The translations under genes were made by a program, and so were the position numbers. DNA of 22,871 bases from Dehalococcoidales bacterium (lineage in GTDB: Bacteria; Chloroflexota; Dehalococcoidia; Dehalococcoidales; UBA3254): NCBI GenBank assembly GCA_016926695.1, contig JAFGOB010000101.1, positions 1-22,871 on the forward strand, written 5' to 3'. The notes beneath the pieces were generated by a model. That model searched no databases, was not told the origin of the DNA, and worked only from the letters and a program-made list of their open reading frames with translations. Below, one piece after another: positions 1 to 17,456 of the stretch (positions are counted from its first letter, which is position 1; every line of letters starts with the position of its first letter).

Positions 1-78
1 TACTGCTAAACCCTATGAAATCCTTAGTCAGAACACTAAAGGAAAGTTCTTCTCAAAAGTTTTACCTATTGAACGGAA

Positions 79-162
79 TGGTGGGCGCTAATGGACTCGA
101 ACCATTGACCTCAGTCTTATCAGTACCAGGCGAGTAAAACCCGGCACAAACGCTAAGCGCCC
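79..162 (-). tRNA. degenerate tRNA-Ile(GAU)-like gene, possibly a pseudogene
   Basis: Read on the minus strand, a perfect 7-bp acceptor stem (GGGCGCT with AGCGCCC) is followed by discriminator A and an encoded CCA. The T arm is canonical (AATGG, loop TTCGAGT, CCATT), the variable loop is AGGTC, and the anticodon loop CTGATAA would carry GAU (Ile). The rest is abnormal. The D arm is about 24 nt with only a GCG/CGC stem and an 18-nt loop instead of the usual 7-11 nt. The anticodon stem (TGGTA with GACTG) has an A-G mismatch and two wobble pairs. Total length is 84 nt, against about 77 for a normal tRNA-Ile with CCA. The intact acceptor and T halves argue for tRNA ancestry; function is doubtful. 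Confidence 0.5.
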
Positions 163-199
163 GCTTATAAATCCTGCCGGTCTGTATCCCTCTTTCTTT

Positions 200-1654
200 T
201 TATCCCGCAGGGTTCAGGCCGATGTACTGCAAAATGTTTCTACCCGCGATCCTGCCGGAGTTCACCGCGAAGCTGGAGGACAGTCCCGTCGAGTCCTTGA
301 TGCAGTAGCTGTCTCCGTACATACCCCCCGCGTCAAAGCCCCCCGCGTAGAGTCCGGGAATGACCTCGTCACCGGTATCCACAACCTCGGCCTTCTGATT
401 GATCTTGATCCCTCCAAGTGTACCCAGGAAAACATTTCTTCCCTTCACTGCATAAAACTCGGGGCCCAGCACCGGCCTGAGATATAGCGGGTCTTTGGCG
501 AACTCATCGTCACAGCCCTTCCGGCAAAAATTGTTATACTGCGCCACCGTATTTTCGAGCACAACCGGGTCCACCCCTATCTTCACGGCCAGTTCACTCA
601 CGGATGAGGCCTTGAAGACCGCATCCTTCTGGTCGACCACTGCGCTTTCCAGCTCCCGCTCCAGGTCAGTCAGGCGCGAAGCCGGCGGAAACTCCGGGAC
701 CATAGCCTTATCTATGCCCTGTTCGATCAGGTATTTTTTGGTGGACGTGTCGAAGATGCTGAAGGTACAGCCGTCCTTCTGCCGTACGCTGGCATTGCCC
801 ATTTCGGTATCGTAGAAGGTGATGCTTTCGTCACAAAACCTCTGGCCTTTTTTATTGATCCAGAGATATGGCTGAACAGGAATATAAGAAAGCTGCGGCG
901 TCAGTTCGGGATTGACAAGAGCATCACGCAGCACTTCCAGCACCCTCATCCCTTCCTCCGCAGCCCCTGCCTCGAAGGCCATGCGGATGCCGTCTCCCAT
1001 CTTTCCCTCATTCCCGAAGGGGATCAGGTTTTCGCCGAGATCGAATCCGGAGTATTTCTTGATCCACTCTTTATTATTGGCATAACCGCCGCTGGCGATA
1101 ACCACTGCCGTAGCCGGGACTTGCTGTTCTGTACCCTTTTCTTCAAATTCCACTCCGCTTATTGTCCGCCCGGATTTCAGCACCCTCGTTACAGGAGTCG
1201 ATAGTGAGATCGCAACTCCCAGCGCCCTGGCCCTTTCTTCCAGCGTTTTTATCACGGCTGCGCCCGCGCCCTGGACCACGTGGTAGGTATAAGGAGCGCC
1301 GGGGATATTGGTAGTGGCGGTAGTGAAAACCACGCCCTGTTTCTGAAGCCATTCGATTGTTGCGGCCGACTCGTTGACTATAGCTCGCACCAGGTGCGGG
1401 TTAGCCCTCCAGTGGCTGTAGCTCATGATACTCTTGAAAGCCTGATTGCGGCTGTAGGTAATGTACCTCTCGCGCTGCATACGGCTTTCAACGGCGAAAA
1501 TGCCGCGGAAATTCACCGAGGTACCGCCGCAGGCTGCGGCCTTTTCAAATACCCTTACCCTTGCCCCACCTTCCGCCAGGGTAACCGCTGCCGCCAGTCC
1601 CGTTACTCCCGAACCAACGATTGCCACCTGTATCTGTTCCTGCGAAAGCGTCAT
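200..1654 (-). CDS. FAD-dependent fumarate reductase/ketosteroid dehydrogenase-like flavoprotein
   Basis: This is a 484-residue FAD_binding_2-family protein. It has an N-terminal dinucleotide-binding motif (GSGVTG, residues 14-19), an acidic residue ending the second strand (E37), GGTS near 43-46, an INKKGQRFCDE segment typical of fumarate-reductase-like flavoproteins, and a C-terminal GLYAGGFDAGG FAD-binding segment. There is no signal peptide, haem motif or flavin-attachment domain, so it is probably a soluble cytoplasmic reductase or dehydrogenase of a C=C bond or ketone. Its substrate cannot be read from the sequence. The start at 1654 is preferred over an in-frame ATG at 1684 because AAAGGAGG lies just upstream of it. 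It is transcribed divergently from the aldo/keto reductase, and its promoter carries the tandem operator motif shared with the cupin gene. Confidence 0.9.
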   Translation of the reverse strand: MTLSQEQIQVAIVGSGVTGLAAAVTLAEGGARVRVFEKAAACGGTSVNFRGIFAVESRMQRERYITYSRNQAFKSIMSYSHWRANPHLVRAIVNESAATIEWLQKQGVVFTTATTNIPGAPYTYHVVQGAGAAVIKTLEERARALGVAISLSTPVTRVLKSGRTISGVEFEEKGTEQQVPATAVVIASGGYANNKEWIKKYSGFDLGENLIPFGNEGKMGDGIRMAFEAGAAEEGMRVLEVLRDALVNPELTPQLSYIPVQPYLWINKKGQRFCDESITFYDTEMGNASVRQKDGCTFSIFDTSTKKYLIEQGIDKAMVPEFPPASRLTDLERELESAVVDQKDAVFKASSVSELAVKIGVDPVVLENTVAQYNNFCRKGCDDEFAKDPLYLRPVLGPEFYAVKGRNVFLGTLGGIKINQKAEVVDTGDEVIPGLYAGGFDAGGMYGDSYCIKDSTGLSSSFAVNSGRIAGRNILQYIGLNPAG

Positions 1655-1724
1655 TTCCCCTCCTTTCCGGTCGTATATTTGCACCCTTTGTTTCTCCCCG
1701 GAATACCACTATACGGCCTTTGAC

Positions 1725-1753
1725 TTCTTATTTTGTTAAGTGTATCATATAAT
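1725..1753 (+). promoter_or_regulatory. possible promoter for the aldo/keto reductase operon
   Basis: A perfect TATAAT lies at 1748-1753, with a weak -35 (TTCTTA, 1725-1730) 17 bp upstream. The predicted transcription start would fall inside the first operator copy. A better placed -35 is not visible, so an activator may be required or the start may lie elsewhere. Confidence 0.35.
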
Positions 1754-1779
1754 ATACTATTAATAAATACTACTATCAA
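1751..1779 (-). promoter_or_regulatory. sigma70-type promoter for the flavoprotein gene
   Basis: On the minus strand TTGATA (1779-1774) is separated by 17 bp from TATATT (1756-1751). Each hexamer matches consensus at 5 of 6 positions. The spacer and the -35 box are covered by two copies of the operator-like motif. Confidence 0.55.
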
Positions 1780-1788
1780 TTAATATTA
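1755..1788. promoter_or_regulatory. tandem 18-bp operator-like repeats, divergent promoter copy
   Basis: Two copies of TACTATTAATWAATACTA lie at 1755-1772 and 1771-1788, offset by 16 bp with a 2-bp overlap. The first is TACTATTAATAAATACTA and the second TACTATCAATTAATATTA. Each is a near-palindrome. The first copy differs at one position from the motif at 5163-5180 in the cupin promoter. The pair covers the -35 box and spacer of the flavoprotein promoter. A dimeric winged-helix repressor, possibly the PadR protein at 3924-4529, is the natural candidate ligand (inference). Confidence 0.55.
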
Positions 1789-1838
1789 TCAATAGGACCT
1801 GCGGCATAAGCTGAAAGGAAGGAGGTTAGATCATCTCG

Positions 1839-2852
1839 ATGAAACTGAAAAACATGGGGAAAACTGGTCTAAAGGTATCGGTCATATGCCTCGGCACCAT
1901 GACCTTCGGTACCCAGGTAAAAGAGGCGGACGCCATTGGTCTCATCCACTCGGGGATGGATAACGGCATCAATTTTCTGGATACCGCCCCTGTCTATAAC
2001 AGCTCTCTGGCCGAGGAGATAGTCGGCAAAGCTATCAAGGGCAGCCGCCACGACTATGTGGTTGCCACCAAAGCCGGACCTCCGGCCAAAATCATCCCCG
2101 GCGTGCCGCCGGGACCGAATGAGACCGGGCTTTCCCGCAAGTCCATTTTCCGGCAGATAGAGGGCAGCCTCAAGCGCCTCCAGACCGACTACATAGACAT
2201 TTATTACGTCCATGAGCCGGACCATAACACCCCTCTGGAGGAAACCCTGGACACACTCAATGACCTGGTCCGTCAGGGTAAGGTACGTTACCTTGGCTGC
2301 TCCAATTTCGCAGCCTGGCAGACGGCCCAGGCTCTAAGGGTAAGTGAGAGGCGCCGCCTTGCCGGGTTCAACTGCGTCCAGCCGCCCTATAACCTGCTTA
2401 CACGAGATATTGAGATGGAACTTTTACCTTTCTGCCTTGATGAAGGCCTGGGTGTCTGCGTCTACAATCCCCTGGCGGGAGAGATGCTCACGGGACGTCA
2501 TGAGTTCGGCAAGCCGCCGGCGGAAGGCCGTTTTACCCTGCCTGTCCTGGGTCCCGGCTATCTCAAGCGCTACTGGTCCGAGACCAATTTCAATGCAGTG
2601 GAAAAGCTGAAAGTACTGGCAGCGGAACACAGGGTAACATTGCCCCAGTTCGCCCTGGCCTGGATACTGCATAATCCGGCTATTACCTCCGTGCTGAGCG
2701 GTACGATCTCGCAGGTGCAGCTCCAGGAAAATATGGCGTCTGTAGATATCCAGCTTACTACCGAAGAGTTCCATGCCTGTGACGAGGTCTGGAGTATGTT
2801 CAAGATACCCAGATATCATTATGCCCATCTCCCCGGCATCCCGCTGAAGTAA
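1839..2852 (+). CDS. aldo/keto reductase
   Basis: This 337-residue (beta/alpha)8 NAD(P)H-dependent oxidoreductase reduces an aldehyde or ketone, or does the reverse. The full AKR catalytic tetrad is visible: D48 and Y53 in the FLDTAPVYN segment, K78 in VVATKAG and H125 in YYVHEPD. LGCSNF and the late NPAITSVLSGT segment also fit the family. Length is normal for AKRs of the general-stress/YghZ type. AAGGAGGT lies 12 nt before the ATG, a rather long spacing. It is first in a probable operon with the HpcH/HpaI aldolase 138 bp downstream and diverges from the flavoprotein gene. The substrate is unknown. Confidence 0.92.
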   Translation: MKLKNMGKTGLKVSVICLGTMTFGTQVKEADAIGLIHSGMDNGINFLDTAPVYNSSLAEEIVGKAIKGSRHDYVVATKAGPPAKIIPGVPPGPNETGLSRKSIFRQIEGSLKRLQTDYIDIYYVHEPDHNTPLEETLDTLNDLVRQGKVRYLGCSNFAAWQTAQALRVSERRRLAGFNCVQPPYNLLTRDIEMELLPFCLDEGLGVCVYNPLAGEMLTGRHEFGKPPAEGRFTLPVLGPGYLKRYWSETNFNAVEKLKVLAAEHRVTLPQFALAWILHNPAITSVLSGTISQVQLQENMASVDIQLTTEEFHACDEVWSMFKIPRYHYAHLPGIPLK

Positions 2853-2889
2853 GGAATGCAGGAGGTTGATAACCATCATTTATGTATAT

Positions 2890-2914
2890 ACCTGTATTTT
2901 TTAAAAAACCAGGT
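2890..2914 (+). other. AT-rich hairpin downstream of the aldo/keto reductase
   Basis: The arms ACCTG (2890-2894) and CAGGT (2910-2914) flank a run of six T followed by six A that pair with each other. It lacks a terminal U tract, so it may be an mRNA-processing or partial attenuation hairpin rather than a terminator. Confidence 0.3.
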
Positions 2915-2922
2915 TAACTAAA

Positions 2923-2938
2923 TTCAGTCGTGACTGAA
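2923..2938. promoter_or_regulatory. perfect 7-bp inverted repeat upstream of the aldolase gene
   Basis: TTCAGTC-GT-GACTGAA is a perfect palindromic pair with a 2-bp centre, 52 bp before the aldolase start. It has no following T tract. It could be a regulator binding site or part of a leader hairpin. It differs from the TACTATTA-type motif seen upstream. Confidence 0.35.
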
Positions 2939-2990
2939 CCCAATGTAAAGCGAAATTCTGTTTCAGAAAGATACAAAAGGAGGCTATTGA

Positions 2991-3785
2991 ATGTCTTTCA
3001 GACCCAAAGAGAACCGTATTTTAAGCGCCATGGCCAGTGGCAGGATACCTGTCGGTATGGAGGTTAATACCGGTAATCCCAGCATCATTGAGATTCTTGG
3101 CTATACCGGTTTTGATTTCCTCATGTTCGATATGGAGCACAGCCGCTTCAGTACCGAGACCATGGAGAACTGCATCCGCGCGGCTGATGCCGCCGGTATT
3201 ACCACCATCGTCAGGATAATGGAGAACAATTCAGCCCTAGCCCGCCAGGCACAGGAAGCCGGCGCTCAGGGAATCGTGGTGCCCCATATCGAAACACCGG
3301 CGGATGTCCGCAAACTGATCGATGCGGTACGCTATGGTCCGGAGGGCAAGTGCGGTGTTTGCCCGTCTATCCGTGCCGCCAATTACTCGGGCGCCACCTT
3401 TCAGCAGTACATCGAATACTGCAACCGCAACACCATGGTTATCCCCCTGCTGGAGGACGTGGCCGGTTTTGACAATGCCGAGGAGATTTTCTCCATGCTG
3501 AAACCCGGCCTGGATGCTATCGGCACCGGGATGGGAGACCTGTCTTATTCACTGGCCAAACCGGGACAGAAGGCCGACCGGCAGCATCCCTTCGTTAAAG
3601 AGGCCGCTGCTAAGGTGACCGCCCTTTCGCAGAAAACCGGTGTCCCTATCATGGACATGGCTTTTTCGCCTGAGCATGCCCGTGAAACCGTTAAAAACGG
3701 CGCCCGCATTCTCCTGTATTCCATCGACCAGCTCCTGTTTTATTCTCTCTGCCAGGATATTATGCGCAATGTAAAATTTGATTGA
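2991..3785 (+). CDS. HpcH/HpaI-family aldolase/citrate lyase-like protein
   Basis: This 264-residue protein is of the phosphoenolpyruvate/pyruvate-dependent class II aldolase family, which cleaves 4-hydroxy-2-oxo acids to pyruvate and an aldehyde using a divalent metal. The expected active-site residues are present: E49-H50 in FDMEHSRF, R75 in TIVRIMENN, E155 in IPLLEDVAG and D183 in GTGMGDLS. The segment GAQGIVVPHIETPADVRKLI is typical of the family. AAGGAGG is 7 nt upstream of the ATG. It is the second gene after the aldo/keto reductase, which could process the aldehyde product or precursor (inference). The exact substrate is not identifiable. Confidence 0.9.
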   Translation: MSFRPKENRILSAMASGRIPVGMEVNTGNPSIIEILGYTGFDFLMFDMEHSRFSTETMENCIRAADAAGITTIVRIMENNSALARQAQEAGAQGIVVPHIETPADVRKLIDAVRYGPEGKCGVCPSIRAANYSGATFQQYIEYCNRNTMVIPLLEDVAGFDNAEEIFSMLKPGLDAIGTGMGDLSYSLAKPGQKADRQHPFVKEAAAKVTALSQKTGVPIMDMAFSPEHARETVKNGARILLYSIDQLLFYSLCQDIMRNVKFD

Positions 3786-3810
3786 TATCATTATGTTCTG
3801 ATGTTTTAAT

Positions 3811-3838
3811 TACCGGCGCAGATCGTGCCGGGTATTTT
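3811..3838 (+). terminator. weak terminator-like hairpin after the aldolase
   Basis: TACCGGC (3811-3817) can pair with GCCGGGTA (3826-3833) with one bulged base, followed by TTTTG. It sits 26 bp after the aldolase stop and before the regulator gene. Confidence 0.35.
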
Positions 3839-3923
3839 GCCATTCCTGCCGCAATAAGAGTATTATTACGGTAATGTCCGGGTATAGAACAGATTTTCAG
3901 GTAAATGAGCAGGAAATTATCCG

Positions 3924-4529
3924 ATGCTGTCAAAGACCGACCTACTTATACTGGGTATAATCGCCGAGAAACCGATTAATCCCTACGCCATCATCAAGCT
4001 GATCAACTACAAAAGCAATAGCATCCGGCGCTATATCCACCCCCAGACCGTCTATGGTGTGGTCAATAGCCTGCACCGCAAGAAGTTGATCTCCGGTAAA
4101 AGGATGAAAAACGGCAACATGCCGGAGAGGACGGAGTATTCCATTACCAAAAAGGGCGAGGAGATGATCCGTAAAAGCCTGATCTCCTATCTCAACACGC
4201 CCGAGGACAACCTCTCAGAGCTGGTACTCTCGATCCTGCTGTTAGGATTTGTCGATAAAGAAACGGTGATTGAGGCCTTGAAAGAATACCGCCAGAAGAT
4301 CCGGAACGAGATCGACATCAGCCGCAAACTGTCCACTAGGTCGAAAATTCCGGACGAGTTCTACACCCGCAAGATCGTTGCCAGGCACACCCTGGACATC
4401 CTTCTGGTGAACCTAAAAACGGTCAACGAGCTGATTGATAGGGTTGAAGCCGACAACCGCTGGCAGGACTTTCAGGTCCCCTGGTGGAGGAACGAATACC
4501 TCCAGGACGGGGAAGCACAGGGAGACTAG
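3924..4529 (+). CDS. PadR-family transcriptional regulator
   Basis: This 201-residue protein begins with the PadR winged-helix domain (about residues 1-85). Visible landmarks are LLILGIIAEKPINPYAIIK, a recognition helix around HPQTVYGVVNSLHRKKLI, and the wing with ERTEYSITKKGEEM. The C-terminal half is alpha-helical and charged, fitting the Vir_act_alpha_C dimerisation domain. Such proteins bind palindromic operators, usually as repressors released by small phenolic or hydrophobic ligands. It lies between the aldolase and the convergent cupin gene, within the set of promoters that share the TACTATTA-type motif. The Shine-Dalgarno is weak (AGGA about 10 nt upstream). An AGTATTA half-site occurs upstream near 3859-3865, which weakly suggests autoregulation. 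Confidence 0.85.
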   Translation: MLSKTDLLILGIIAEKPINPYAIIKLINYKSNSIRRYIHPQTVYGVVNSLHRKKLISGKRMKNGNMPERTEYSITKKGEEMIRKSLISYLNTPEDNLSELVLSILLLGFVDKETVIEALKEYRQKIRNEIDISRKLSTRSKIPDEFYTRKIVARHTLDILLVNLKTVNELIDRVEADNRWQDFQVPWWRNEYLQDGEAQGD

Positions 4530-4591
4530 AAAGACTCACATTAGGCCATACTTTGCCTCAGGGGCGGGCGGGCATCGAATCCGCTCCGCTG

Positions 4592-5098
4592 TTAGTTCTC
4601 CGGCTGGAATCCGACATCCTCCCAGTTGCTCCAGTCTACCCTGTTCCGCTTGTCAGCGGGTAAGAGCTGGGGGAAAAATTTCTCTGTGTGCTGAAGCTCC
4701 TGGTTTACCTCCAGGAAGATAAAGGGACGGACAAGCTTGATCGGTCTCCAGGGAGCGTGGACCACTCCGGCCGGAATATAGACCACGGTGGTTTTGGTGA
4801 TCAGGTGTTTTTCCATCTCCTCCCCCATCGAGAACTCTATCTCAGCTCCCAGGTCGGTCGGGTCCTGCGGGTTGGTGCCGATGTGGAAAAGCAGCTCAGC
4901 CCCTTTGTGGATATGGGGCGGATGGCCTATTTGGAAGGCGTCTGCCGAGACATCTACATCGGGCATAACCCAGTGCAGGAAATAGGCATTGCTGCCCTTG
5001 ACCACGGTATCATCGAATTTGGCGATAATGTCACCCAGGGGGAACTTCTGCTCGCCGCTGTAGGTTAAAAAATATTTACCGTATTTGCTGTTATCCAC
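4592..5098 (-). CDS. cupin-domain protein
   Basis: This 168-residue single-domain cupin has a complete metal-site signature: H59-x2-H62-x-H64 with E68 in HPPHIHKGAELLF, and H114 in IPAGVVHAPW. It could be a metal-dependent dioxygenase, isomerase or decarboxylase, or a small-molecule sensor; the sequence does not distinguish these. The start is GTG at 5098, 7 nt after GGAGG; a nearby ATG at 5103 is out of frame. It is convergent with the PadR gene and is driven from a promoter carrying the same operator pair as the flavoprotein/aldo-keto promoter, so it probably belongs to the same regulon. Confidence 0.85.
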   Translation of the reverse strand: MDNSKYGKYFLTYSGEQKFPLGDIIAKFDDTVVKGSNAYFLHWVMPDVDVSADAFQIGHPPHIHKGAELLFHIGTNPQDPTDLGAEIEFSMGEEMEKHLITKTTVVYIPAGVVHAPWRPIKLVRPFIFLEVNQELQHTEKFFPQLLPADKRNRVDWSNWEDVGFQPEN

Positions 5099-5162
5099 TG
5101 CATTTCCTCCATTCCCGGAATATTTTATGTAAAACCCATCTTTTTTGGAATATTCCGGTTTA

Positions 5163-5196
5163 TAGTATTAATTAATAGTAATATCTTTTAATACTA
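5163..5196. promoter_or_regulatory. tandem 18-bp operator-like repeats, cupin promoter copy
   Basis: TAGTATTAATTAATAGTA lies at 5163-5180. A second, more diverged copy at 5179-5196, read on the minus strand as TAGTATTAAAAGATATTA, matches at 14 of 18 positions. The offset is 16 bp, the same as at 1755/1771. The first copy covers the -10 box and the second the -10/-35 spacer of the cupin promoter. Confidence 0.55.
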
Positions 5197-5203
5197 TTGT
5201 CAA
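5175..5203 (-). promoter_or_regulatory. promoter of the cupin gene
   Basis: On the minus strand a perfect TTGACA (5203-5198) is followed after 17 bp by TACTAT (5180-5175, 4 of 6). The predicted leader is about 70 nt. It is fully overlapped by the operator-like repeats. Confidence 0.55.
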
Positions 5204-5425
5204 ACCAGGAAAGCATCCAAATCATTTGCTGAAAATGTACATGGTTACTGGAGAAATGCCGTAACCGGTGAAATTGTGGACTCAGGACCCGGATATTGAA
5301 GCCGTATGACGACATCTTTCCGTTGGTATAGCATCGCTGGTAGATTGTGAGGAGATTTTGGTTGAAGCAAAAGGTGAAAACCAGGCAGGTGATTAACCCG
5401 GATGGTTTAATTTTTAGAAGCTCAA

Positions 5426-5575
5426 TTATTTGTGTGTATCTTGTCTCCCGCATTCGAAACATTCTTTATCATGTAAAGTAACAACGCCGCCGCATACAGG
5501 ACACAGTCGGCGTGACCTTTCTGTTTGCAGAAAAGCATCCAGACCCCAAATCGCGCCAAGCGTGGTATGAGGTAA
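5426..5575 (-). pseudogene. C-terminal remnant of a zinc-ribbon protein
   Basis: An open frame of 49 codons starts right after a TGA at 5578-5576 and has no ATG, GTG or TTG. It encodes ...ERSRRLCPVCGGVVTL then HDKECFECGRQDTHK and a TAA stop, giving two CxxC knuckles typical of a zinc ribbon. A different frame just upstream (ATG at 5609) reads MACPFNVCGYLI, which could be the original N-terminus separated by a frameshift; that link is speculative. The rest of 5210-5420 shows no convincing gene. Confidence 0.35.
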
Positions 5576-5607
5576 TCAGGTAGCCACAGACGTTGAAGGG
5601 ACAGGCC

Positions 5608-6210
5608 ATGTTGCGTAAATTGATATTTTTGTTTGTAATTGTATTTTTGATTTCGAGTCTTTTAGCGGGAGGATGTTCTAAAAAGGCTGATGACGATGGT
5701 AAACCGGGCGGCGAAACCCCGGTAATTACTACTCGCGGCGCATCAGGAACAATTACCACCGGCACTCCTGTAAAAGTCCTGGCGGAGGAAATCACTGATC
5801 AAGGCGCCGTATTAGTCGTTGACAAAGCTGGAGACCCGCTGGACGGCTTTGTTCTTGATATACCTACCGGGGCTTATGCCAGGGTACCAGTCAAGATTCC
5901 TGAAAACCATTTCGCCATCCAGCCTGAAGTAAAAGACCTGGTCAGTCTATTACAGAGATTTACCGATCTTGAGATGACGTTCAACGGCACCCATACTTTC
6001 CGCGTATGGACAAAAGGCCAGGGTGAATCAAGCATAAGCCGGAAGGAGGGGATGAATATCCCATGGGCCGGGGCCAGCGGGCCTATTACTATCAGATGGA
6101 ACGGGACTTCATTCACGGGAAAATACGTTCACCTTGATCCGGATACGAGAGGGCGCATTGATGAAATCAGCGGGACTGTATTAACTGACGGTACGGTGCT
6201 GGAAAAATAA
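5608..6210 (+). CDS. predicted lipoprotein of unknown function
   Basis: This is a 200-residue protein. Residues 1-23 form a lipoprotein-type signal: a basic start (MLRK), a hydrophobic stretch and LLAGGC with the lipid-bearing cysteine at about residue 23, followed by a charged, flexible SKKADDDGKPGGE linker. The remainder is rich in T, V, G and D and looks beta-rich (for example a DKAGDPLDGFVLDIPTGAY segment), consistent with an extracytoplasmic beta-sandwich. I do not recognise the family. The ATG at 5608 is preferred over a TTG at 5593 because AAGGGA lies 6 nt upstream and the signal peptide then starts cleanly. It is isolated from its neighbours. Confidence 0.75.
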   Translation: MLRKLIFLFVIVFLISSLLAGGCSKKADDDGKPGGETPVITTRGASGTITTGTPVKVLAEEITDQGAVLVVDKAGDPLDGFVLDIPTGAYARVPVKIPENHFAIQPEVKDLVSLLQRFTDLEMTFNGTHTFRVWTKGQGESSISRKEGMNIPWAGASGPITIRWNGTSFTGKYVHLDPDTRGRIDEISGTVLTDGTVLEK

Positions 6211-6507
6211 TGAAGAGAACCAATCAGAGCTGAAGACTTCATTGCTTAATCAGGACGTCCGGAGCCATGTAACAATGGTCGAACATCATAGAGAATCAAT
6301 CCGGGACGGTAATAAAGACAGCAGCTTTGATTATGTGTCCACCGGCTGGAATGATTCAGTGAGTCTGCATCTGACATTGAAAAAATAGACCGTTCTTTCT
6401 CTCAACTGTTCACCAGGTTAGCTACAAAGTCCCCCTTACCTGATGATCTGGGTATTGTTTATTCCCGGATGCGGCTGCATTCTTATACAACCGCACGGAG
6501 AGTATCT
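6211..6507. other. intergenic stretch between the lipoprotein and TIGR04076-like genes
   Basis: Nothing firm is present. A short open frame ending at 6388 could encode a 37-residue peptide from ATG 6275 (ending DSVSLHLTLKK), but it lacks a convincing ribosome binding site and recognisable homology. No terminator with a U tract is evident for the convergent genes on either side. Confidence 0.3.
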
Positions 6508-6846
6508 TCAATCTATCCTCTTCATCTCCCACACGGTGCCCGTCCGGTTCGGGCAATGGATCCGGTAAACCTCCCGGTCGCTGTCATCCCAGGAAGGAAC
6601 GCCCAGTGCGACCCTCCAGTTATAAAGTTCCAGGACATGCTTAAGAGCATAGCAAATGTTATGCGGCTCCTGGTAGGGTATCGCATAGACATAAGTGTCG
6701 CCTATATTGTGGAAGCACTGCCCGGTCTTTTCTACACATTTGATCTCGATTTTGCCAAGGTTGTCCGTGAACTCCCGGTAATCAGCATCCGTGAAATTTC
6801 GCATATCAATGTTGAGATTGGATTTTTTCTGGTTACTTTTTTCCAT
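6508..6846 (-). CDS. TIGR04076-like small protein
   Basis: This is a 112-residue cytoplasmic protein. The order KIEIKCVEKTGQCFHNIGD, then EPHNICYALKHVL, then YRIHCPNRTGTVWEMKRID fits the pattern I recall for TIGR04076 proteins: a Lys/Cys strand, a G-C-x2-x-x-GD motif, a central P-x-x-I/F-C-x-A helix, and a terminal cysteine strand ending in a basic-IE/ID motif. The function of that family is unknown. The ATG at 6846 follows a GAGGGAAGAG purine tract; an adjacent TTG at 6849 is less likely. It stands alone between the lipoprotein and the truncated surface-protein gene. Confidence 0.65.
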   Translation of the reverse strand: MEKSNQKKSNLNIDMRNFTDADYREFTDNLGKIEIKCVEKTGQCFHNIGDTYVYAIPYQEPHNICYALKHVLELYNWRVALGVPSWDDSDREVYRIHCPNRTGTVWEMKRID

Positions 6847-7017
6847 CAACTCTTCCCTCGCTATAGTCTTTCCCAGGACATAACAATAATACCATCAGAT
6901 GAATAACTATAAAATAACCAGTACGCATGGCGTAGCGTTTTAAGCTCAGAATAATTCAGTGTTACGAAATGCTATAAGAGCGGACTATGACATGTGACAG
7001 ACCATAGGATAGCTATT

Positions 7018-8519: not shown

Positions 8520-8762
8520 TTACTTTTCAGCCTCATTTCCTGCGCCTCTCCATGAAGTACGACTCCAGGACCAAAGGTTCTGTCCGCACCTGGGACAATC
8601 TATCTTTGCACCATTTCCAGGAATTTGCGCTTTCCCCCTGACCAGCTTCTGACATTTGGCGCAATATATTTTTTTTATTGGCAGTCTTATCAAGAGGCCG
8701 CTTTTTTCTTTTGAAGGGGCTTTCATTGCTATATTATTTTTTTCATTTAGAGGTGCTCTCAT
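8520..8762 (-). CDS. small zinc-ribbon protein
   Basis: This is an 80-residue basic protein with two CxxC knuckles (IYCAKCQKL and IDCPRCGQNLW), which would bind one Zn. A Trp-rich segment (LWSWSRTSW) follows. The ATG has AAGGAG 8 nt upstream, supporting translation. The first 30 residues are basic and poorly structured. It is the last of three zinc-ribbon genes on this strand. Nucleic-acid or protein binding is the usual role for such proteins, but the target is unknown. Confidence 0.7.
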   Translation of the reverse strand: MRAPLNEKNNIAMKAPSKEKSGLLIRLPIKKIYCAKCQKLVRGKAQIPGNGAKIDCPRCGQNLWSWSRTSWRGAGNEAEK

Positions 8763-8983
8763 AACAAATTCTCCTTCGGTATTAGCAGATTTTTTTCTTC
8801 CTACCAGGGTTAAATCAGACTAAGAGCTTAACGTTTATTAGAGCCTCTTTGAGCTTGTTTTCTCTTCTTCAGCCTGGCCCTTTTCTGTCATTTGACAAGC
8901 ATTGAATTTTTTGATTTGTTTTAATTCAGACAGGCGGTATATTTACTATTGTTATCTTGGTGCATTTTCAAGCGGGACCGGTT

Positions 8984-9295
8984 TTATCTGCCGACTCTGG
9001 TTTTCATCTGGCAATTGCTGCAATATACTGGCTTACCTGGACGAGGCTGAAATGGAACCCGAACTGCTTTTCCACATTGGGTGCAGACTACCGGGAACAT
9101 CTGCCGGCGTGAATTGCAATCCTCGTCTTCATTAGCATGAGTGAAGGCCCGATTATTTCTAGCACGGCGACAAGTAGGACAGTTTATGGGGTCATTGGGG
9201 TAACCCTGAGAACTACGGTACTGTTGCTCTTCAACCGTGAAGGTGAAGCTCTTTTTACAATTGTTGCAGTAGAGCAATTTTTCTGTGAAACTCAT
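8984..9295 (-). CDS. four-CxxC zinc-ribbon protein (probable zinc-binding, zf-trcl type)
   Basis: This 103-residue protein has four CxxC knuckles: CNNC, CPTC, CTQC and CSNC. The N-terminal unit (LLYCNNCKKSFTFTVEEQQYR, then INCPTCRRARNN) resembles the probable zinc-ribbon family with the F-T-x-E-E-Q core. The C-terminal unit (CTQCGKAVRVPFQPRPGKPVYCSNC) is the common CxxC-VPF-P-KPVYC ribbon. AGGAG lies 7 nt before the ATG. It is a paralogue of the gene at 9462-9761 and even its leader is similar. Function is unknown. Confidence 0.85.
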   Translation of the reverse strand: MSFTEKLLYCNNCKKSFTFTVEEQQYRSSQGYPNDPINCPTCRRARNNRAFTHANEDEDCNSRRQMFPVVCTQCGKAVRVPFQPRPGKPVYCSNCQMKTRVGR

Positions 9296-9422
9296 TTAAT
9301 GACTCCTAATTGTTAATTATTCAGTCCGGGATCATCCATCGCTTTTATAGTAAAATATAAGATGTATTTGAGGCTGGCAAACTCTAAAGCGAGAATGTAT
9401 AATTTTCGGGTGAATAGAATAG

Positions 9423-9448
9423 ATAAGGGCCAGATATCTGACCCTTAT
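9423..9448. terminator. hairpin just downstream of the first zinc-ribbon gene
   Basis: ATAAGGGCCAG (9423-9433) pairs with CTGACCCTTAT (9438-9448) over 11 bp with one non-Watson-Crick position and a 4-nt loop. On the plus strand it is followed by GATTTTT; on the minus strand, the coding direction, the following bases are only moderately U-rich. It is probably a transcription end or processing hairpin between the two zinc-ribbon genes. Confidence 0.45.
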
Positions 9449-9461
9449 GATTTTTCAGGTA

Positions 9462-9761
9462 TTATTTGGAACTGGTGTAGCAGTCCCGGCAGTATACCGG
9501 TTTATCGCCACGAGGTTGAAAGGGAACTTCGGTCTGCTTGCCGCAGCGACCGCAGGTGGCAGGAAACATCTGGCGTGAGCCTCTATTAGAAATTCTGCCA
9601 TCGTTACCATAACGCTCAGACCTTCGGACAGAACGACAAGTAGGGCAGCGCTTAGGCTCATTGGTAAAGCCTTTAGTGGCAAAAAATTCCTGCTCTTCAG
9701 CAGTAAAGGGGAATGTTTTTCCGCAATCGGAACAAGTGAGGGATTTCTCAGTGTAAGTCAT
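9462..9761 (-). CDS. four-CxxC zinc-ribbon protein, paralogue of the next gene
   Basis: This 99-residue protein has CSDC, CPTC, CGRC and CRDC knuckles. The N-terminal ribbon contains KTFPFTAEEQEFFATKGF and the C-terminal ribbon contains KQTEVPFQPRGDKPVYC. Both units align with the protein at 8984-9295. The ATG at 9761 is preferred over one at 9827 because AGGAGG (9777-9772) lies 10 nt upstream and the family begins at this point. The ribosome binding site is embedded in an 11-bp inverted repeat that could control translation. Confidence 0.85.
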   Translation of the reverse strand: MTYTEKSLTCSDCGKTFPFTAEEQEFFATKGFTNEPKRCPTCRSVRRSERYGNDGRISNRGSRQMFPATCGRCGKQTEVPFQPRGDKPVYCRDCYTSSK

Positions 9762-9762
9762 T

Positions 9763-9813
9763 ATTGAATGACCTCCTATTTTTATAACTTGGCTCAATCC
9801 CGGGTCATTCAAT
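9763..9813 (-). promoter_or_regulatory. leader hairpin predicted to mask the zinc-ribbon ribosome binding site
   Basis: In the mRNA, ATTGAATGACC (9813-9803) is perfectly complementary to GGTCATTCAAT (9773-9763). The 3' arm starts with the last GG of the AGGAGG Shine-Dalgarno and ends one base before the ATG; the loop is 29 nt. Pairing would hide the initiation region. The leader of the 8984-9295 paralogue has a related but weaker arrangement. Confidence 0.5.
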
Positions 9814-9928
9814 TCTTTTGTAGACATAATTTACTAAGGAATGGGTATAACCGAAAACTAAACCAGCACCCTTATTATGCGCTAATATATAAATATTTAC
9901 AAGTAGAGGGAAACGAAGTAAGAAATAT

Positions 9929-10201: not shown

Positions 10202-11986
10202 TTACCGTGATCTTCCACCGCTAGAACCCGCACCTCCACCTCCTGAATCCGTACTTCCTCCGCCGGAACCATCGCCTGAGCTTCCGCCTGACATAGACCC
10301 ACTGTCTGATGCAGAACTACTGCTTCCCCCGGAGCCAGACCCTTCTCCGCCTGAACCTGAATCGTTTCCGCCTGCCCCGGAATTGCTACTTCCTGAACCC
10401 CCACTCCCGGAGCCGGAACTACCACCCGAACCCGAACTACTGGCAGCGCCTCCTGAATCCGTACTTCCTCCGCTGGAACCGCCGCTTGAAGCTGATCCGC
10501 CGCCTGAGCCAGACCCTTCTCCGCCTGAACCGCCCCCGGTACTACTGCCGGCATTACCGGCGCCATTGCCGCCTGAATTCCCGCTTCCAGCGCCCTGCTC
10601 GCTGCCTCCGGACCCGGCATTTTCGCCTGAAACCTGTTCCCCGCCGGAAGAATTGCCTTCATCTGAGCCGGCTGTATCAGCTTCCGCATTGCTGTCGTTT
10701 TCCCCGTTCTTCCCCTGGCCGTTGCCCTGGTTCGAATTGTTCCCGCTCTGCCCGCTGTTATTTTGACCGGCTTTCTCCTGATGCCCGGGGGAATCCGGGC
10801 CCTGCTTACCCATTTGACTCCCTTCATCCGGCCCTTCTCCCTTATCAACGGTCCCGGCCCCCCGGCCGTTATTACCATGGTGCTGATATCCATGGCCTGT
10901 CTTTTCCTGGATTTTAAGGGCTTTTGCCCGGCTGTTCTCAACCACCTTTTTATACTCTGCGGGTACCTGTTGGGAAAGTCTGTCAAGCCTTTCAATACAA
11001 CCTGACAGTACCTTGTAGCTCTCACTTTCAATTTCAGTCGTGTATTCATCCATGGACTGAGCATTCAGCAGGATCTGCTCGCCAAGTTGACTGAACTGCT
11101 GGTACTGGAGGATAACTTCCTGCATTACCCGGTATTGATGTTTTTCCGCCTTGGCCCCGGCCCTTTTCAGCCTTTGTTCCATGGCTGCCAGGTTGGCCCT
11201 GGCCGCCCGCAGAATATCCTGCCGCGACCACTCCTCCAGAATATCGACCTGGCGGCTGGCAGCCAGGGAACCCGCCTCCAGAGCAGGCCCTGAAAGCCCG
11301 TCGAAGGTATCCAGGGTCTCATCGCAAAACAACATCTGCTGCCGGATATCCTCCGAGGCCCTTTCAAGCACGATGGCCAGCGATGCCGTATCATCAATTT
11401 TATTTATTTCTGTTGCGGCAGCCTCCAGGTTGGCTCCATATCCATTTACAGCCTCACCAGCCCTTTTTTCATCTTTGCCCGCCAGCCTGCGCATCTCTTC
11501 AAGACGTCTTTGGGCAAATTGCAGATTCAGGACAGCCTTGTCGGCGCTGTCACCGGCTACCAGCAGCCTGGCGCCTTCAGTTCCCTTCTTTAACGGGTAG
11601 AGCACATCCCCCGGCAGGCTGTCCTGGGCGGCATAAGCGGTCCCGCTTCCAGCCATCGCCACCACGATAATGACCGCCAGTACCGTCAGGGCAACCCTGG
11701 CCCATGCCATCTGCGGAGGTATCCCAAAGCTGAAGAAATCGGAAAACGACCATGACCTGCTTTGCCTGGTCGCCTGGATCTGCCCCAGCAAACGGGCCCG
11801 GGCTGCCTGCTTGCGGCTTTTATCCAGTTTTAAAGCCGGAGGCGACTGGATATTCAGGGCCGTTTTGAGCAGCGGCTCCAGTTCCTGGCGTTTTGAAGGA
11901 TAACGGTCCAGGCATGAAGACAGGGTGGATTTCCCTGACCTTATCTCTTCTACGCAATCGGTTAATATTTTCTCAATCTTAGCCAC
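10202..11986 (-). CDS. DUF5667 membrane protein with long Gly/Ser-rich tail
   Basis: This protein of about 594 residues has a cytoplasmic N-terminus (KIEKILTDCVEEIRSGKSTL, then LDRYPSKRQELEPLL) and one transmembrane helix at about residues 94-115. A DUF5667 region follows with QDSLPGDVLYPLKKGTE, then helical coiled-coil-like sequence to about residue 365. The last 220 residues or so are Asn/Gln and then Gly/Ser low-complexity sequence. It overlaps the ECF sigma gene by 8 nt, so it is probably co-translated and may regulate that factor as a membrane-bound anti-sigma or sensor (inference from the pairing). I prefer the GTG at 11986, which has GGAGAAGAG upstream; a GTG at 12016 has no ribosome binding site. 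No sortase or anchor motif ends the tail. Confidence 0.85.
   Translation of the reverse strand: MAKIEKILTDCVEEIRSGKSTLSSCLDRYPSKRQELEPLLKTALNIQSPPALKLDKSRKQAARARLLGQIQATRQSRSWSFSDFFSFGIPPQMAWARVALTVLAVIIVVAMAGSGTAYAAQDSLPGDVLYPLKKGTEGARLLVAGDSADKAVLNLQFAQRRLEEMRRLAGKDEKRAGEAVNGYGANLEAAATEINKIDDTASLAIVLERASEDIRQQMLFCDETLDTFDGLSGPALEAGSLAASRQVDILEEWSRQDILRAARANLAAMEQRLKRAGAKAEKHQYRVMQEVILQYQQFSQLGEQILLNAQSMDEYTTEIESESYKVLSGCIERLDRLSQQVPAEYKKVVENSRAKALKIQEKTGHGYQHHGNNGRGAGTVDKGEGPDEGSQMGKQGPDSPGHQEKAGQNNSGQSGNNSNQGNGQGKNGENDSNAEADTAGSDEGNSSGGEQVSGENAGSGGSEQGAGSGNSGGNGAGNAGSSTGGGSGGEGSGSGGGSASSGGSSGGSTDSGGAASSSGSGGSSGSGSGGSGSSNSGAGGNDSGSGGEGSGSGGSSSSASDSGSMSGGSSGDGSGGGSTDSGGGGAGSSGGRSR
10239..10531. 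repeat. internal direct repeats in the DUF5667 tail
   Basis: A 32-nt unit at 10239-10270 recurs at 10449-10480 with one difference (210 bp apart). A 26-nt unit at 10332-10357 recurs at 10506-10531 (174 bp apart). Both distances are multiples of three, so expansion kept the reading frame. This points to growth of the tail by slippage or segment duplication. Confidence 0.7.
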
Positions 11987-12560
11987 TTTTTCGCTCTTCT
12001 CCGCCCAGGATATCACGCATCTTTTTCAGTCCTCTGTGCATGATTACCCGGATATTGCCCTCGCTTTTATTCAATGCAGCGGAGATTTCACTGTATTCAA
12101 AGCCTTCAATGAAACTCATTATTATTACCTGCTGCTGGTCTCCGGGCAACTGGAGGATCGCCCTCCTGATCTCCTGCTGGGTAAACTCCGCATCCAGCAA
12201 GTGCTCCGGGCTTTTACCCCGGTCCTCTATCATGATCTCATTGTCGAGATAGGCATGGTCCTTCTTCGTCCTGTAGTAATCCACCACCAGGTTATGACTG
12301 ATGGTAAAAAGCCAGCCGAGAAAGGGCGTTCTGGTCTTTTTGTATTTCGGTAACGCCTTCCAGGCCCTGGTGAAAACCTCCTGGGTTAAGTCCTGCGCAT
12401 CTTCCACGTTGCTTGTCCTGTAATAAACATGCCGGTATATCCGGTCGGCATATATATCATACAAACGTCCGAATGCCACGGTATCGCCGGCCGCAGCACG
12501 GTCGACCAGAGACTCCGTTTCAAGCTTTATTCCGGGATCGGCATTCTCTTTATTCAGCAA
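11979..12560 (-). CDS. ECF-type RNA polymerase sigma factor
   Basis: This 193-residue sigma-70-family factor has region 2 at about residues 20-90 (FGRLYDIYADRIYRHVYYRT, then DAQDLTQEVFTRAWKAL and the -10-reading segment before SHNLVVDYYR). Region 4 at about 130-185 carries a helix-turn-helix (EYSEISAALNKSEGNIRVIM) and ends in HRGLKKMRDIL. Regions 1.2 and 3 are absent, as in ECF factors. The only plausible start is TTG. It is followed, with an 8-nt overlap, by the membrane DUF5667 protein, an arrangement expected for a sigma factor and its regulator. Confidence 0.9.
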   Translation of the reverse strand: MLNKENADPGIKLETESLVDRAAAGDTVAFGRLYDIYADRIYRHVYYRTSNVEDAQDLTQEVFTRAWKALPKYKKTRTPFLGWLFTISHNLVVDYYRTKKDHAYLDNEIMIEDRGKSPEHLLDAEFTQQEIRRAILQLPGDQQQVIIMSFIEGFEYSEISAALNKSEGNIRVIMHRGLKKMRDILGGEERKSG

Positions 12561-12665: not shown

Positions 12666-12703
12666 TTGACAGTTCCCGCCGGTATTTATTATACTACTAA
12701 TAA
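12666..12703 (+). promoter_or_regulatory. promoter and Fur-box-like operator of the Fur-family gene
   Basis: A perfect TTGACA (12666-12671) and TATACT (12690-12695, 5 of 6) are 18 bp apart, giving a start of transcription at about 12702-12703. The inverted repeat TTATTA-TACTAC-TAATAA (12686-12703) covers the -10 box and the start point and resembles Fur/PerR boxes. The predicted start coincides with the ATG, so the mRNA may be leaderless. Confidence 0.55.
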
Positions 12704-13143
12704 TGAGAATGAGTCGCAATCGCAGAGACGGATTAAAAAAGACAGACCCTATTCTGACGCCGCAGAGGCAGGCGATACTGGAAGCTATGCGCCGCTCGGG
12801 AAACCTGCTGGACGCCAGGGAGTTATATAGACTGGTCAATAGCGAAGGTGAAACAATCAGCCTTGCCACCATATACAGGAGCTTGAATTTTTTCAGGGAG
12901 AAGGGCGTTATTGATGAATACAGTCTGGGTAAAGACCGCTGCTGCTACGAGCTTAAACATTCTTCGGAGCATCAGCACCTGAAGTGCAAATGCTGCGGGA
13001 GAATATTCGGCTTTGAATGCCCCTCTATTGCGGAGATTGTCAGACAAATACGCGAAGAGAAAGGTTTTATTATCGAAAAAATTGAAATATGTATCCAGGG
13101 CACCTGCCTGGAATGCCGTAAAAAACGCGGTGATGAAATATAA
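12703..13143 (+). CDS. Fur-family metalloregulator (Fur/PerR type)
   Basis: This 146-residue protein has a winged-helix domain (about 10-85) with recognition helix SLATIYRSLNFFREKGVI. The C-terminal dimerisation domain has H86, H90 and H92 (HSSEHQH) and structural zinc cysteines C95/C98 and C135/C138. It would repress iron- or peroxide-response genes as a metal-bound dimer; Fur versus PerR specificity cannot be settled from these residues alone. No Shine-Dalgarno precedes either ATG (12703 or 12709). The gene diverges from the ECF sigma gene and precedes thioredoxin-like and CoA-disulfide-reductase-like genes, which suits a redox-stress role. Confidence 0.88.
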   Translation: MRMSRNRRDGLKKTDPILTPQRQAILEAMRRSGNLLDARELYRLVNSEGETISLATIYRSLNFFREKGVIDEYSLGKDRCCYELKHSSEHQHLKCKCCGRIFGFECPSIAEIVRQIREEKGFIIEKIEICIQGTCLECRKKRGDEI

Positions 13144-16949: not shown

Positions 16950-17453
16950 TCAATCTCTATACACCAGCTTTCGGGCCGCTTTGCGGGCAGCGATTTCCGA
17001 CAGCTCTTCCTGTGTACCCCAGTGCAGTGCCCCCGAAGGACAGTTCTCCACGCAGAAAGGCCCCTTTCCCGTTTCAATGCGGTCAAGGCACATATCGCAT
17101 TTTTGCATGATACCGTCCTCATCGAATTGGGGCGCCCCGAAAGGACAGGCCTCAAGGCAGGCGCGGCAGCCGATACATTTGGAGCGGTCGACCGTCACTA
17201 TACCGTCCTCTATCCTTTTACTTATTGCCCCGGCAGGACAGGCCGGGATGCAGGGAGCCTTGGCGCAGTGCCGGCATGAAAGAGAGAGGAAGGTACGTTT
17301 TACATCCGGGAAGTTCCCCGTAGCTACCTCTAAGACCCTTCTCCATTTCATGCTCTTCGCCTTGATTCCATGCACTTGCTTGCAGGCAATTTCGCAGGAC
17401 CAGCACTTCAAACATCTTTCAGATTCAAACAAGAAACCGTACTGCTTTTTCAC
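16950..17453 (-). CDS. four-cluster [4Fe-4S] ferredoxin, DmsB/PsrB-like electron-transfer subunit
   Basis: This 167-residue protein has four [4Fe-4S] ligand sets: CLKCWSCEIACKQ, CRHCAKAPCIPACPAGAI, CIGCRACLEACPFG, and CDMC with the distant CVENCPSGAL. MKWRRVLEV between the first two sets is typical of DmsB-type subunits. No Tat signal or membrane helix is present, so it works in the cytoplasm. It starts at GTG, three bases after the stop of the molybdopterin subunit, with GAGGGGG upstream. It should shuttle electrons from or to that subunit. No NrfD/DmsC-type membrane anchor is nearby. Confidence 0.92.
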   Translation of the reverse strand: MKKQYGFLFESERCLKCWSCEIACKQVHGIKAKSMKWRRVLEVATGNFPDVKRTFLSLSCRHCAKAPCIPACPAGAISKRIEDGIVTVDRSKCIGCRACLEACPFGAPQFDEDGIMQKCDMCLDRIETGKGPFCVENCPSGALHWGTQEELSEIAARKAARKLVYRD

Positions 17454-17456
17454 AGC

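Follow-up and report, generated by a model that had tools for sequence, protein, structure and literature searches.

Which protein reads the two nearly identical double sites that flank a padR gene in this stretch of Dehalococcoidales DNA (22,871 nucleotides, hereafter the window)? The initial annotation took them for copies of a single operator type, one at each of two promoters, recognised by the PadR protein whose gene lies in between, and this reading is supported by the comparisons of sequence described below. PadR proteins are abundant and their textbook operator is of the ATGT/ACAT type; to our knowledge, few PadR operators are known. The genes of the locus are:

200–1654, minus strand: flavoprotein, an FAD-dependent oxidoreductase (FAD_binding_2, PF00890)
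1839–2852, plus strand: aldo/keto reductase (PF00248)
2991–3785, plus strand: HpcH/HpaI-type aldolase (PF03328), with the reductase to one side and padR to the other, all on the same strand
3924–4529, plus strand: PadR-family regulator of 201 aa (PF03551, 34.1 bits against a cut-off of 27, residues 9–83)
4592–5098, minus strand: cupin-like protein with HxH-x3-E ... H residues, tail to tail with padR

The regulator has 28 homologues besides itself, and its AlphaFold model (pLDDT 78.3), whose best PDB match is the PadR protein Rv1176c, has the PadR-type winged helix-turn-helix fold. Y21 and Y44 are invariant in 27 aligned homologues (27 of the 29 hits were aligned) and align with tyrosines of the solved PadR 9qbc; we read them as the equivalents of Y20 and Y42, the signature winged-helix tyrosines of Bacillus subtilis PadR according to the accessible portions of PMC6457526, a paper on LftR, so that both would be present here. 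The B. subtilis protein (PadR-s1, PDB 5x11, solved with operator DNA) shares these conserved tyrosines, as judged from the same partial source and the fold match, and likewise joins a winged helix-turn-helix to a multi-helix C-terminal part. Size and helix content fit subfamily 1 (about 180–200 aa and a C-terminal domain of several helices), whose members dimerise through these helices and have a ligand pocket: the window's protein has 201 aa and, in the single-chain model, C-terminal helices at 97–109, 112–139, 144–176 and 187–198. As for the putative targets, the mechanical open reading frame of the flavoprotein begins at GTG 1684, while a strong ribosome-binding site (GGAAAGGAGGGGAA) accompanies ATG 1654; its nearest NCBIfam family is vinyl phenol reductase (333 bits, under the cut-off of 600). 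The cupin-like protein had no match in Pfam or NCBIfam, and its H62, H64, E68 and H114, which we take to be the cupin motif, are invariant in 40 aligned sequences. An Rfam search returned nothing at gathering thresholds.

Two double sites and the candidate promoters around them

The two putative operators are:

1754–1789, unstranded: predicted operator 1, pseudo-palindromes 1755–1772 and 1771–1788, between the divergent flavoprotein and aldo-keto reductase genes
5162–5197, unstranded: predicted operator 2, pseudo-palindromes 5163–5180 and 5179–5196, over the cupin promoter

The 18-bp copies first noticed, TACTATTAATAAATACTA at 1755–1772 and TACTATTAATTAATACTA at 5180–5163 (minus strand), differ at one base, and their letters and coordinates were right. 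The second copies were also reproduced: 1771–1788 matches the TACTATTAATTAATACTA form at 16 of 18 positions and the TACTATTAATAAATACTA form at 15, and 5179–5196 (minus strand) matches the TACTATTAATAAATACTA form at 14 and the TACTATTAATTAATACTA form at 13. At both places the step is 16 bp, so that paired elements overlap by 2 bp and the double site spans 34 bases at each of the two promoters flanking padR. This 16-bp doubling is confirmed as genuine. The arrangement had been described as a tandem repeat, which holds for the second copy at 16 bp but is incomplete: each element is itself a near-palindrome, TA(C/G)T-N10-A(C/G)TA, with 7, 7, 8 and 5 of 9 symmetric pairs in the four 18-mers, and the orientation of an element is therefore arbitrary. 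TA(C/G)T is retained in 6 of the 8 half-sites, and the two elements of each block score 8/8 and 7/8 under this C/G wobble, which was allowed only after the window and one related locus (L001) had been inspected. With the wobble, the blocks show TACT/AGTA half-sites around an AT-rich core, as in cdPadR1-type operators, while by the strict letters they lie at 2 and 3 mismatches of 14. Against a PadR operator, the strict pair with at most 3 mismatches gave 2 matches in the window, where 0.30 were expected and 3 of 100 shuffles also reached 2. When the 18-mer pattern was searched with at most 3 mismatches, all 6 window matches (both strands counted, plus one of the second copies) fell in the two blocks (shuffle mean 0.02, largest 2). 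No site was found in the scanned upstream regions of the HpcH gene and of padR (3786–3923).

Promoter-like boxes, which are consensus matches and thus candidate promoters only, numbered 12 in positions 1–7000 (shuffle mean 7.8). Those at the blocks are:

1720–1748, plus strand: predicted aldo-keto reductase promoter, TTGACT-N17-TATCAT, 10/12 consensus (-35 at 1720–1725, -10 at 1743–1748)
1751–1779, minus strand: predicted flavoprotein promoter, TTGATA-N17-TATATT, 10/12 consensus (-35 at 1779–1774, -10 at 1756–1751), mostly within operator 1
5175–5203, minus strand: predicted cupin promoter, TTGACA-N17-TACTAT, 10/12 consensus (-35 at 5203–5198, -10 at 5180–5175)

Operator 2 occupies the spacer, -10 and start region of the predicted cupin promoter. 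The claim that both pairs cover promoter boxes thus stands for the cupin and flavoprotein boxes, which lie in or against the operators, but not for the best aldo-keto reductase boxes, which lie beside the site: operator 1 starts 5–6 bp past their -10 and would therefore sit at the transcription start rather than over them.

Matching double sites ahead of distant padR homologues

The decisive evidence for a PadR operator came from loci with PadR homologues, for whose selection only the similarity of the proteins counted (the best 80 of 133 confirmed stretches, from the query alignment of 27 of 29 hits). These homologues are 25–48% identical to the window's PadR over the matched part, and among them, all from one scan of GTDB genomes, the best full-length identity was 35%, none being judged an orthologue. 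Among these best 80 of 133, 61 of 78 loci, from 5 of 10 protein clusters, had two copies of the window's 18-bp palindrome set exactly 16 bp apart within the 200 nt that precede the padR homologue (mean of dinucleotide shuffles, 0.05 loci), which supports the intervening PadR as the candidate regulator. After 16 bp, the most frequent offsets were 32 bp (22 loci in 3 clusters), where a third element continues the array, followed by 13 bp (11 loci in one cluster). Elsewhere the 16-bp pair occurred once in 1.25 Mb, compared with twice in the 22.9-kb window.

The letters agree as well. In the same set, exact TACT-N10-AGTA preceded padR at 61 of 79 loci, as against 6 of 1277 other mechanical open reading frames there. 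TACT-N9..13-AGTA was found upstream at 66 of 79 loci and ATGT-N7..11-ACAT at 2, each with a mononucleotide-shuffle mean of 2.45. The carriers (among L001–L079) belong to Lachnospiraceae, other Bacillota MAGs and two Treponema-labelled MAGs, and have the same doubled palindrome as the window, although their core is mostly TATATA where the window's blocks have ATTAAT.

Other observations point the opposite way. The pair is missing from 17 of the 78 loci and from 5 of the 10 clusters, each such cluster consisting of one locus, and L002 lacks it whereas L001 has it, though both are about equally close to the window's PadR. In the carriers it is the promoter of padR itself that has the site, often about 50–70 bp ahead of the start, whereas the upstream region of the window's padR is without it. 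Furthermore, the window's recognition helix matches those of 13 aligned carriers at only 3–5 of 14 positions, no better than it matches those of the non-carriers L002 and L003, at 4.

The strict form of the 16-bp pair is rare. Only three of the 61 carriers (L043, L060 and L072) have it, and in 199 Bacillota genomes TACT-N10-AGTACT-N10-AGTA occurs in one genome, at a single position that the palindrome makes match on either strand, with no PadR gene within the surrounding 3 kb; a reversed-pattern control also matched one genome. Weak PadR matches appeared in 27 of these 199 genomes, the best (34%) being the same gene as L001. Searches with PadR, cupin, reductase and flavoprotein found no relative of any of them in viral contigs, and the PadR query found none in plasmids.

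The departure of the motif from ATGT/ACAT had been noted as a reservation about PadR. An ATGT-N8-10-ACAT inverted repeat, the classic PadR operator, is indeed absent from both blocks, but the reservation falls away, because TACT/AGTA is the gel-shift-tested half-site of cdPadR1 from Clostridioides difficile (CDR20291_0991, PadR-s2, PDB 5dym), according to the available parts of PMC5050560. As far as these excerpts go, the cdPadR1 promoter has two TACT/AGTA repeats, one of them over -35/-10, the AT-rich core is needed for binding and loose half-site spacing is tolerated in vitro. Half-sites and AT-rich core are thus common to that promoter and the window's blocks. The spacer differs (N11-12, against N10 in the window and in 61 of 79 relatives from the best 80 of 133), as does the arrangement, in which a small PadR-s2 protein acts at its own promoter on repeats 25 and 52 bp ahead of the gene that are not doubled at 16 bp. 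LmrR of Lactococcus lactis is also a PadR protein, a ligand-released repressor that binds as one dimer or several both at its own promoter and at that of its target, in the consulted portions of PMC4534193 and PMC3506622; it is unlike the window's system in its ATGT/ACAT half-sites, 8–10 nt spacing, drug-pump target and PadR-s2 size class. The paper listings and excerpts that we searched contained no report of a 16-bp doubled PadR operator.

Alternative readings of the blocks

The blocks could be operators of a regulator encoded elsewhere, such as another PadR paralogue or a protein of the MarR/TetR type, with the intervening PadR there by coincidence. The bare upstream region of padR and the divergence of its recognition helix from those of relatives would suit this, and the locus is known from the window alone, so that paralogues may exist elsewhere. 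However, the geometry is exactly that of the operators in the PadR clade, and a paralogue would still leave each block a PadR operator. Moreover, relatives probably keep the PadR, cupin and reductase genes linked: three of them probably carry PadR and cupin on one contig (3 exact contig-size matches among the 10 best cupins; shifted-control mean 0.017, largest 1), and one probably carries PadR and the aldo/keto reductase together, as the PadR homologue P0002 and the best reductase lie on contigs of identical size, 7256 (1 match in the top 10; control mean 0.05). In the complete hit lists the linkage is weak, with 3 cupin matches against 0.74 and 2 reductase matches against 0.5, the control maximum being 3 in each case. 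On balance we regard a regulator from elsewhere as unlikely. A Fur protein (12703–13143) was set aside as a candidate regulator because the Fur box differs in appearance from the TA(C/G)T-N10-A(C/G)TA element.

It is very improbable that the blocks are common AT-rich promoter DNA, UP-element or -10-like, with no dedicated protein, even though both are 20% GC and overlap promoter-like boxes. They are identical at 30 of 36 positions (1754–1789 against 5162–5197, minus strand), and 0 of 2000 paired dinucleotide shuffles reached this value, the best being 26 whether AT-rich cores or 154-nt upstream stretches were shuffled; the earlier judgement that AT richness is insufficient was borne out. No place in 1.35 Mb of other DNA from the fetched loci matched the 36-bp block at 27 or more positions, and 5 Mb of random sequence with the site's own composition gave no match at 30. 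Palindromy and an exact 16-bp step are, moreover, not expected of UP-elements. That one block is a recent copy of the other, by duplication or as a small mobile repeat, with just one functional, would fit the 30/36 identity across 36 bp but is hardly credible, as the likeness ends at the block edges (flanks agree at 4/20 and 8/20) and TA(C/G)T persists in the half-sites despite the differences.

Proposed regulation by PadR

We thus consider it likely that both blocks are operators of the PadR protein set between them, which would repress the flavoprotein/aldo-keto reductase and cupin promoters; since many distant relatives carry the same 16-bp-step site before their own genes, the double site is very probably bound by this regulator, which would thereby control a few metabolic genes. 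What is seen directly is the sites and how they are laid out, along with the same layout ahead of distant PadR genes; from this we infer binding, cooperativity, repression and ligand release as follows. Each 18-bp element would take one PadR dimer, and two dimers would lie side by side on the overlapping elements, probably cooperatively and, as 16 bp is about one and a half helical turns, on roughly opposite faces of the DNA. Bound PadR would cover the -35/-10 region at the cupin and flavoprotein promoters and the start point at the aldo-keto reductase promoter, hence its presumed action as a repressor. A small ligand, probably a substrate of the controlled enzymes, may release it.

More tentatively, a largely uncharacterised PadR clade of gut Bacillota, some Treponema-labelled MAGs and the window's Chloroflexota lineage may share one operator code, in which 18-bp TA(C/G)T-N10-A(C/G)TA palindromes follow one another in twos or threes at a fixed step of 16 bp, and adjacent dimers bind cooperatively along the array on alternating faces; in the lineage of the window this array would have moved from the padR promoter to those of neighbouring metabolic genes. 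The regulated set here would comprise the flavoprotein, the cupin-like protein with its unnamed family, the aldo-keto reductase and perhaps the aldolase downstream of it. If this is true, the fixed 16-bp TACT/AGTA-type register would be a predictable binding code for the whole PadR clade, offering a simple way to test the cooperation between PadR dimers and making regulons of uncultured bacteria readable from sequence alone.

Two paired blocks at the divergent and cupin promoters

The initial annotation had placed an 18-bp element at two promoters, each with a weaker copy at a 16-bp offset, and all four copies were confirmed at the claimed coordinates. They form two putative operators, operator 1, between the divergent flavoprotein and aldo-keto reductase genes, and operator 2, at the cupin promoter. 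The promoter-like boxes listed with them are consensus matches, of which positions 1-7000 contain 12, compared with 7.8 in shuffles.

Elements and promoter-like boxes
1755-1772, 18-mer of operator 1, 7/9 palindrome pairs
1771-1788, 18-mer of operator 1, 7/9 palindrome pairs
5163-5180, 18-mer of operator 2, 8/9 palindrome pairs
5179-5196, 18-mer of operator 2, 5/9 palindrome pairs
1779-1774 and 1756-1751, minus strand, flavoprotein -35 and -10 boxes, largely within operator 1
1720-1725 and 1743-1748, plus strand, best reductase boxes, ending 5-6 bp short of operator 1
5203-5198 and 5180-5175, minus strand, cupin -35 and -10 boxes, consensus match

Each of the four 18-mers is a pseudo-palindrome with the half-site TA(C/G)TATTAAT, and adjacent elements share two bases to give a 34-bp unit. 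With up to 3 mismatches allowed, matches to the 18-mer pattern were confined to the two blocks throughout the 22,871 bases (mean 0.02 and maximum 2 in shuffled windows). After extension to 36 bp, 1754-1789 and 5162-5197 (minus strand) are identical at 30 of 36 positions, compared with a top agreement of 26/36 among 2000 trials with dinucleotide-preserving shuffles of the AT-rich cores or the 154-nt upstream stretches. Block 1 had no match at 27 or more positions across 1.35 Mb of other fetched DNA and none at 30 in 5 Mb of random sequence of its own composition, and identity in the flanks is just 4/20 and 8/20. The shared blocks thus go beyond what AT-richness alone explains, bearing out the doubt raised earlier.

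A weight matrix derived from all four copies revealed no additional site in the window. The copies score 22-28, the top stretch clear of them 11.4, and the intergenic stretches upstream of the HpcH-type aldolase gene and padR at most 0.8; since the matrix was trained on the sites it scores, only the gap to the remaining window is informative. Both blocks score 8/8 plus 7/8 against the wobble pattern TA(C/G)T-N10-A(C/G)TA, in line with the level required of the doubled form at homologue loci. The strict doubled pattern, TACT-N10-AGTACT-N10-AGTA, recovers them at 2 and 3 mismatches, a pair of matches also reached in 3 of 100 shuffles.

Relative to the promoter-like boxes, operator 2 occupies the cupin spacer, -10 and start. 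The reductase boxes end just before operator 1, which would therefore cover the reductase start point. This placement suggests the usual repressor layout, and a single protein complex at operator 1 could shut both divergent promoters. The cupin leader (5115-5158, between operator 2 and the start codon) also contains a perfect 10-bp inverted repeat, CCGGAATATT, with arms 24 nt apart, which could be a hairpin or the site of a second regulator. The flavoprotein (200-1684 as a mechanical ORF) probably starts at ATG 1654, which has a strong ribosome-binding site, rather than at the mechanical GTG 1684.

The doubled site at loci of PadR homologues

As first noted, the motif is unlike ATGT/ACAT; its half-site is that of cdPadR1, the PadR of Clostridioides difficile. 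Excerpts of the report on cdPadR1 (PMC5050560) describe binding to inverted repeats of the form TACT(N11-12)AGTA whose core is AT-rich; two of them lie in its promoter, one overlapping -35/-10, and sub-fragments of that promoter without these repeats were unbound. The paper also reports binding, possibly non-specific, at two promoters that have just half a repeat.

Similarity of the PadR protein was the only criterion for choosing homologue loci, and the 80 best of 133 were used. Most come from Lachnospiraceae and other Bacillota, with two Treponema-labelled, one Calditrichales, one KSB1 and one Gastranaerophilales; the TACT/AGTA pattern was fixed after PMC5050560, ahead of any look at these loci. 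Among 79 of these 80 (L039, whose match begins at base 14, was omitted), 66 had TACT-N9..13-AGTA in the 200 nt upstream, where mononucleotide shuffles gave 2.45, and 2 had ATGT/ACAT there, again with 2.45 in shuffles. With re-derived gene starts, again for 79 loci (L075, L076 and L080, with a 17-bp variant, dropped because the search did not recover them; L081, L084 and L088 added from a scan of 199 Bacillota genomes), the spacer was exactly 10 in 61. The N10 form preceded 6 of 1277 other mechanical ORFs of at least 120 aa at the same loci. When one site was anchored per locus, second-site letters peaked sharply at offsets -16 and +16.

The doubled form, defined as a perfect wobble match paired at 16 bp with another of 7/8 or better, was present at 61 of 78 loci (76 of the 78 from the best 80 of 133; L081 dropped as a duplicate of L001), compared with a dinucleotide-shuffle mean of 0.05. 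Elsewhere in the 5-40 range, offsets gave 0-4 loci, the exceptions being 32 bp, with 22 loci carrying three-element arrays, and 13 bp, with 11 loci from a single cluster. The carriers are confined to five of ten protein clusters (single linkage, 60% identity), with 49 in one, and so the 61 loci are far from 61 independent events. L001, the nearest full-length relative, combines a TACT element with a TAGT element and shares this wobble with the window. Beyond padR promoters, 1.25 Mb yielded the doubled form once, and the window has two. That occurrence, at 11262-11295 of the Treponema-labelled MAG locus L043, lies 1.26 kb beyond the padR start and just ahead of an ORF (11348-11800) whose effector-binding match (Cass2) is weak and below cut-off. 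The arrangement resembles that of the window in its second-promoter placement. L043 and L055, both Treponema-labelled MAG contigs, have a PadR and operator belonging to the Lachnospiraceae cluster, by horizontal transfer or mis-binning.

Against these results, 17 of the 78 loci lack the pair, including all single-locus clusters except that of L001 (five such). One of these five, L002, is about as similar to the window PadR as L001 (33% vs 35%). The recognition helix of the window PadR is identical at 3-5 of 14 positions to 13 aligned carriers and at 4 of 14 to the non-carriers L002 and L003; helix identity is thus no predictor of the site. The strict form is found in only 3 of the 61 carriers and in 1 of 199 Bacillota genomes, there with no PadR gene within the surrounding 3 kb.

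Gene linkage and predicted regulation

Three of the seven best cupin homologues (P0031, P0034 and P0036) lie on contigs sized 1714, 1474 and 4084, exactly as the PadR homologues P0011, P0014 and P0004; a shifted-size control for the ten best cupins gave 0.017 expected, maximum 1. Across 120 of the 180 cupins found, the same three matches compare with an expectation of 0.74, and one or more shifts reached 3 as well. The top reductase match shares its contig size, 7256, with PadR P0002; among the 119 reductases listed, two size matches against 0.5 expected (maximum 3) are within the control range, so the top-ranked one alone counts. Linkage of padR to the cupin gene and to the reductase gene thus probably persists in some relatives.

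Named reductase homologues are at 68% (Chloroflexota), 62% (Dehalococcoidia) and 61% (Deltaproteobacteria), and named cupin homologues at 52% (Chloroflexota) and 49% (Dehalococcoidales), which suggests a Chloroflexota origin. The cupin-like protein (4592-5098) has 180 homologues at E <= 1e-3, with a few named Chloroflexota or Dehalococcoidales among the 120 listed, whereas the Pfam, NCBIfam and PDB searches gave no relative at the thresholds applied; H62, H64, E68 and H114 are invariant in 40 aligned homologues.

Elsewhere in the window are a tRNA-Val (TAC anticodon; 79-162, minus strand) close to the edge, three consecutive small CxxC zinc-ribbon-like proteins (8520-9827, minus strand; by eye), a protein with a long Gly/Ser-rich low-complexity tail (10202-12016) adjoining an RNA polymerase sigma-factor-like gene (11979-12560; named by eye), and a molybdopterin oxidoreductase with a 4Fe-4S partner (16950-19718), DMSO/thiosulfate-reductase-like but scoring below curated cut-offs.

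We predict with good confidence that the blocks are the operator of the PadR encoded at 3924-4529, and hold repression and dimer cooperativity less firmly. Against this prediction, the matrix scan found no site of its own upstream of padR. If cotranscribed with the reductase and aldolase, padR would still be autoregulated, which is no more than possible given the 138-nt gaps and a terminator-like hairpin, itself weak, at 3813-3831. The half-site is already known, and what appears new is the N10 spacing, compared with N11-12 in cdPadR1, and the fixed 16-bp register, used at two enzyme promoters, of which we found no report in excerpts of the open-licence literature. Most likely, two PadR dimers would occupy each block on roughly opposite DNA faces, and would keep the flavoprotein/reductase promoters and the cupin promoter shut off until a ligand arrives.
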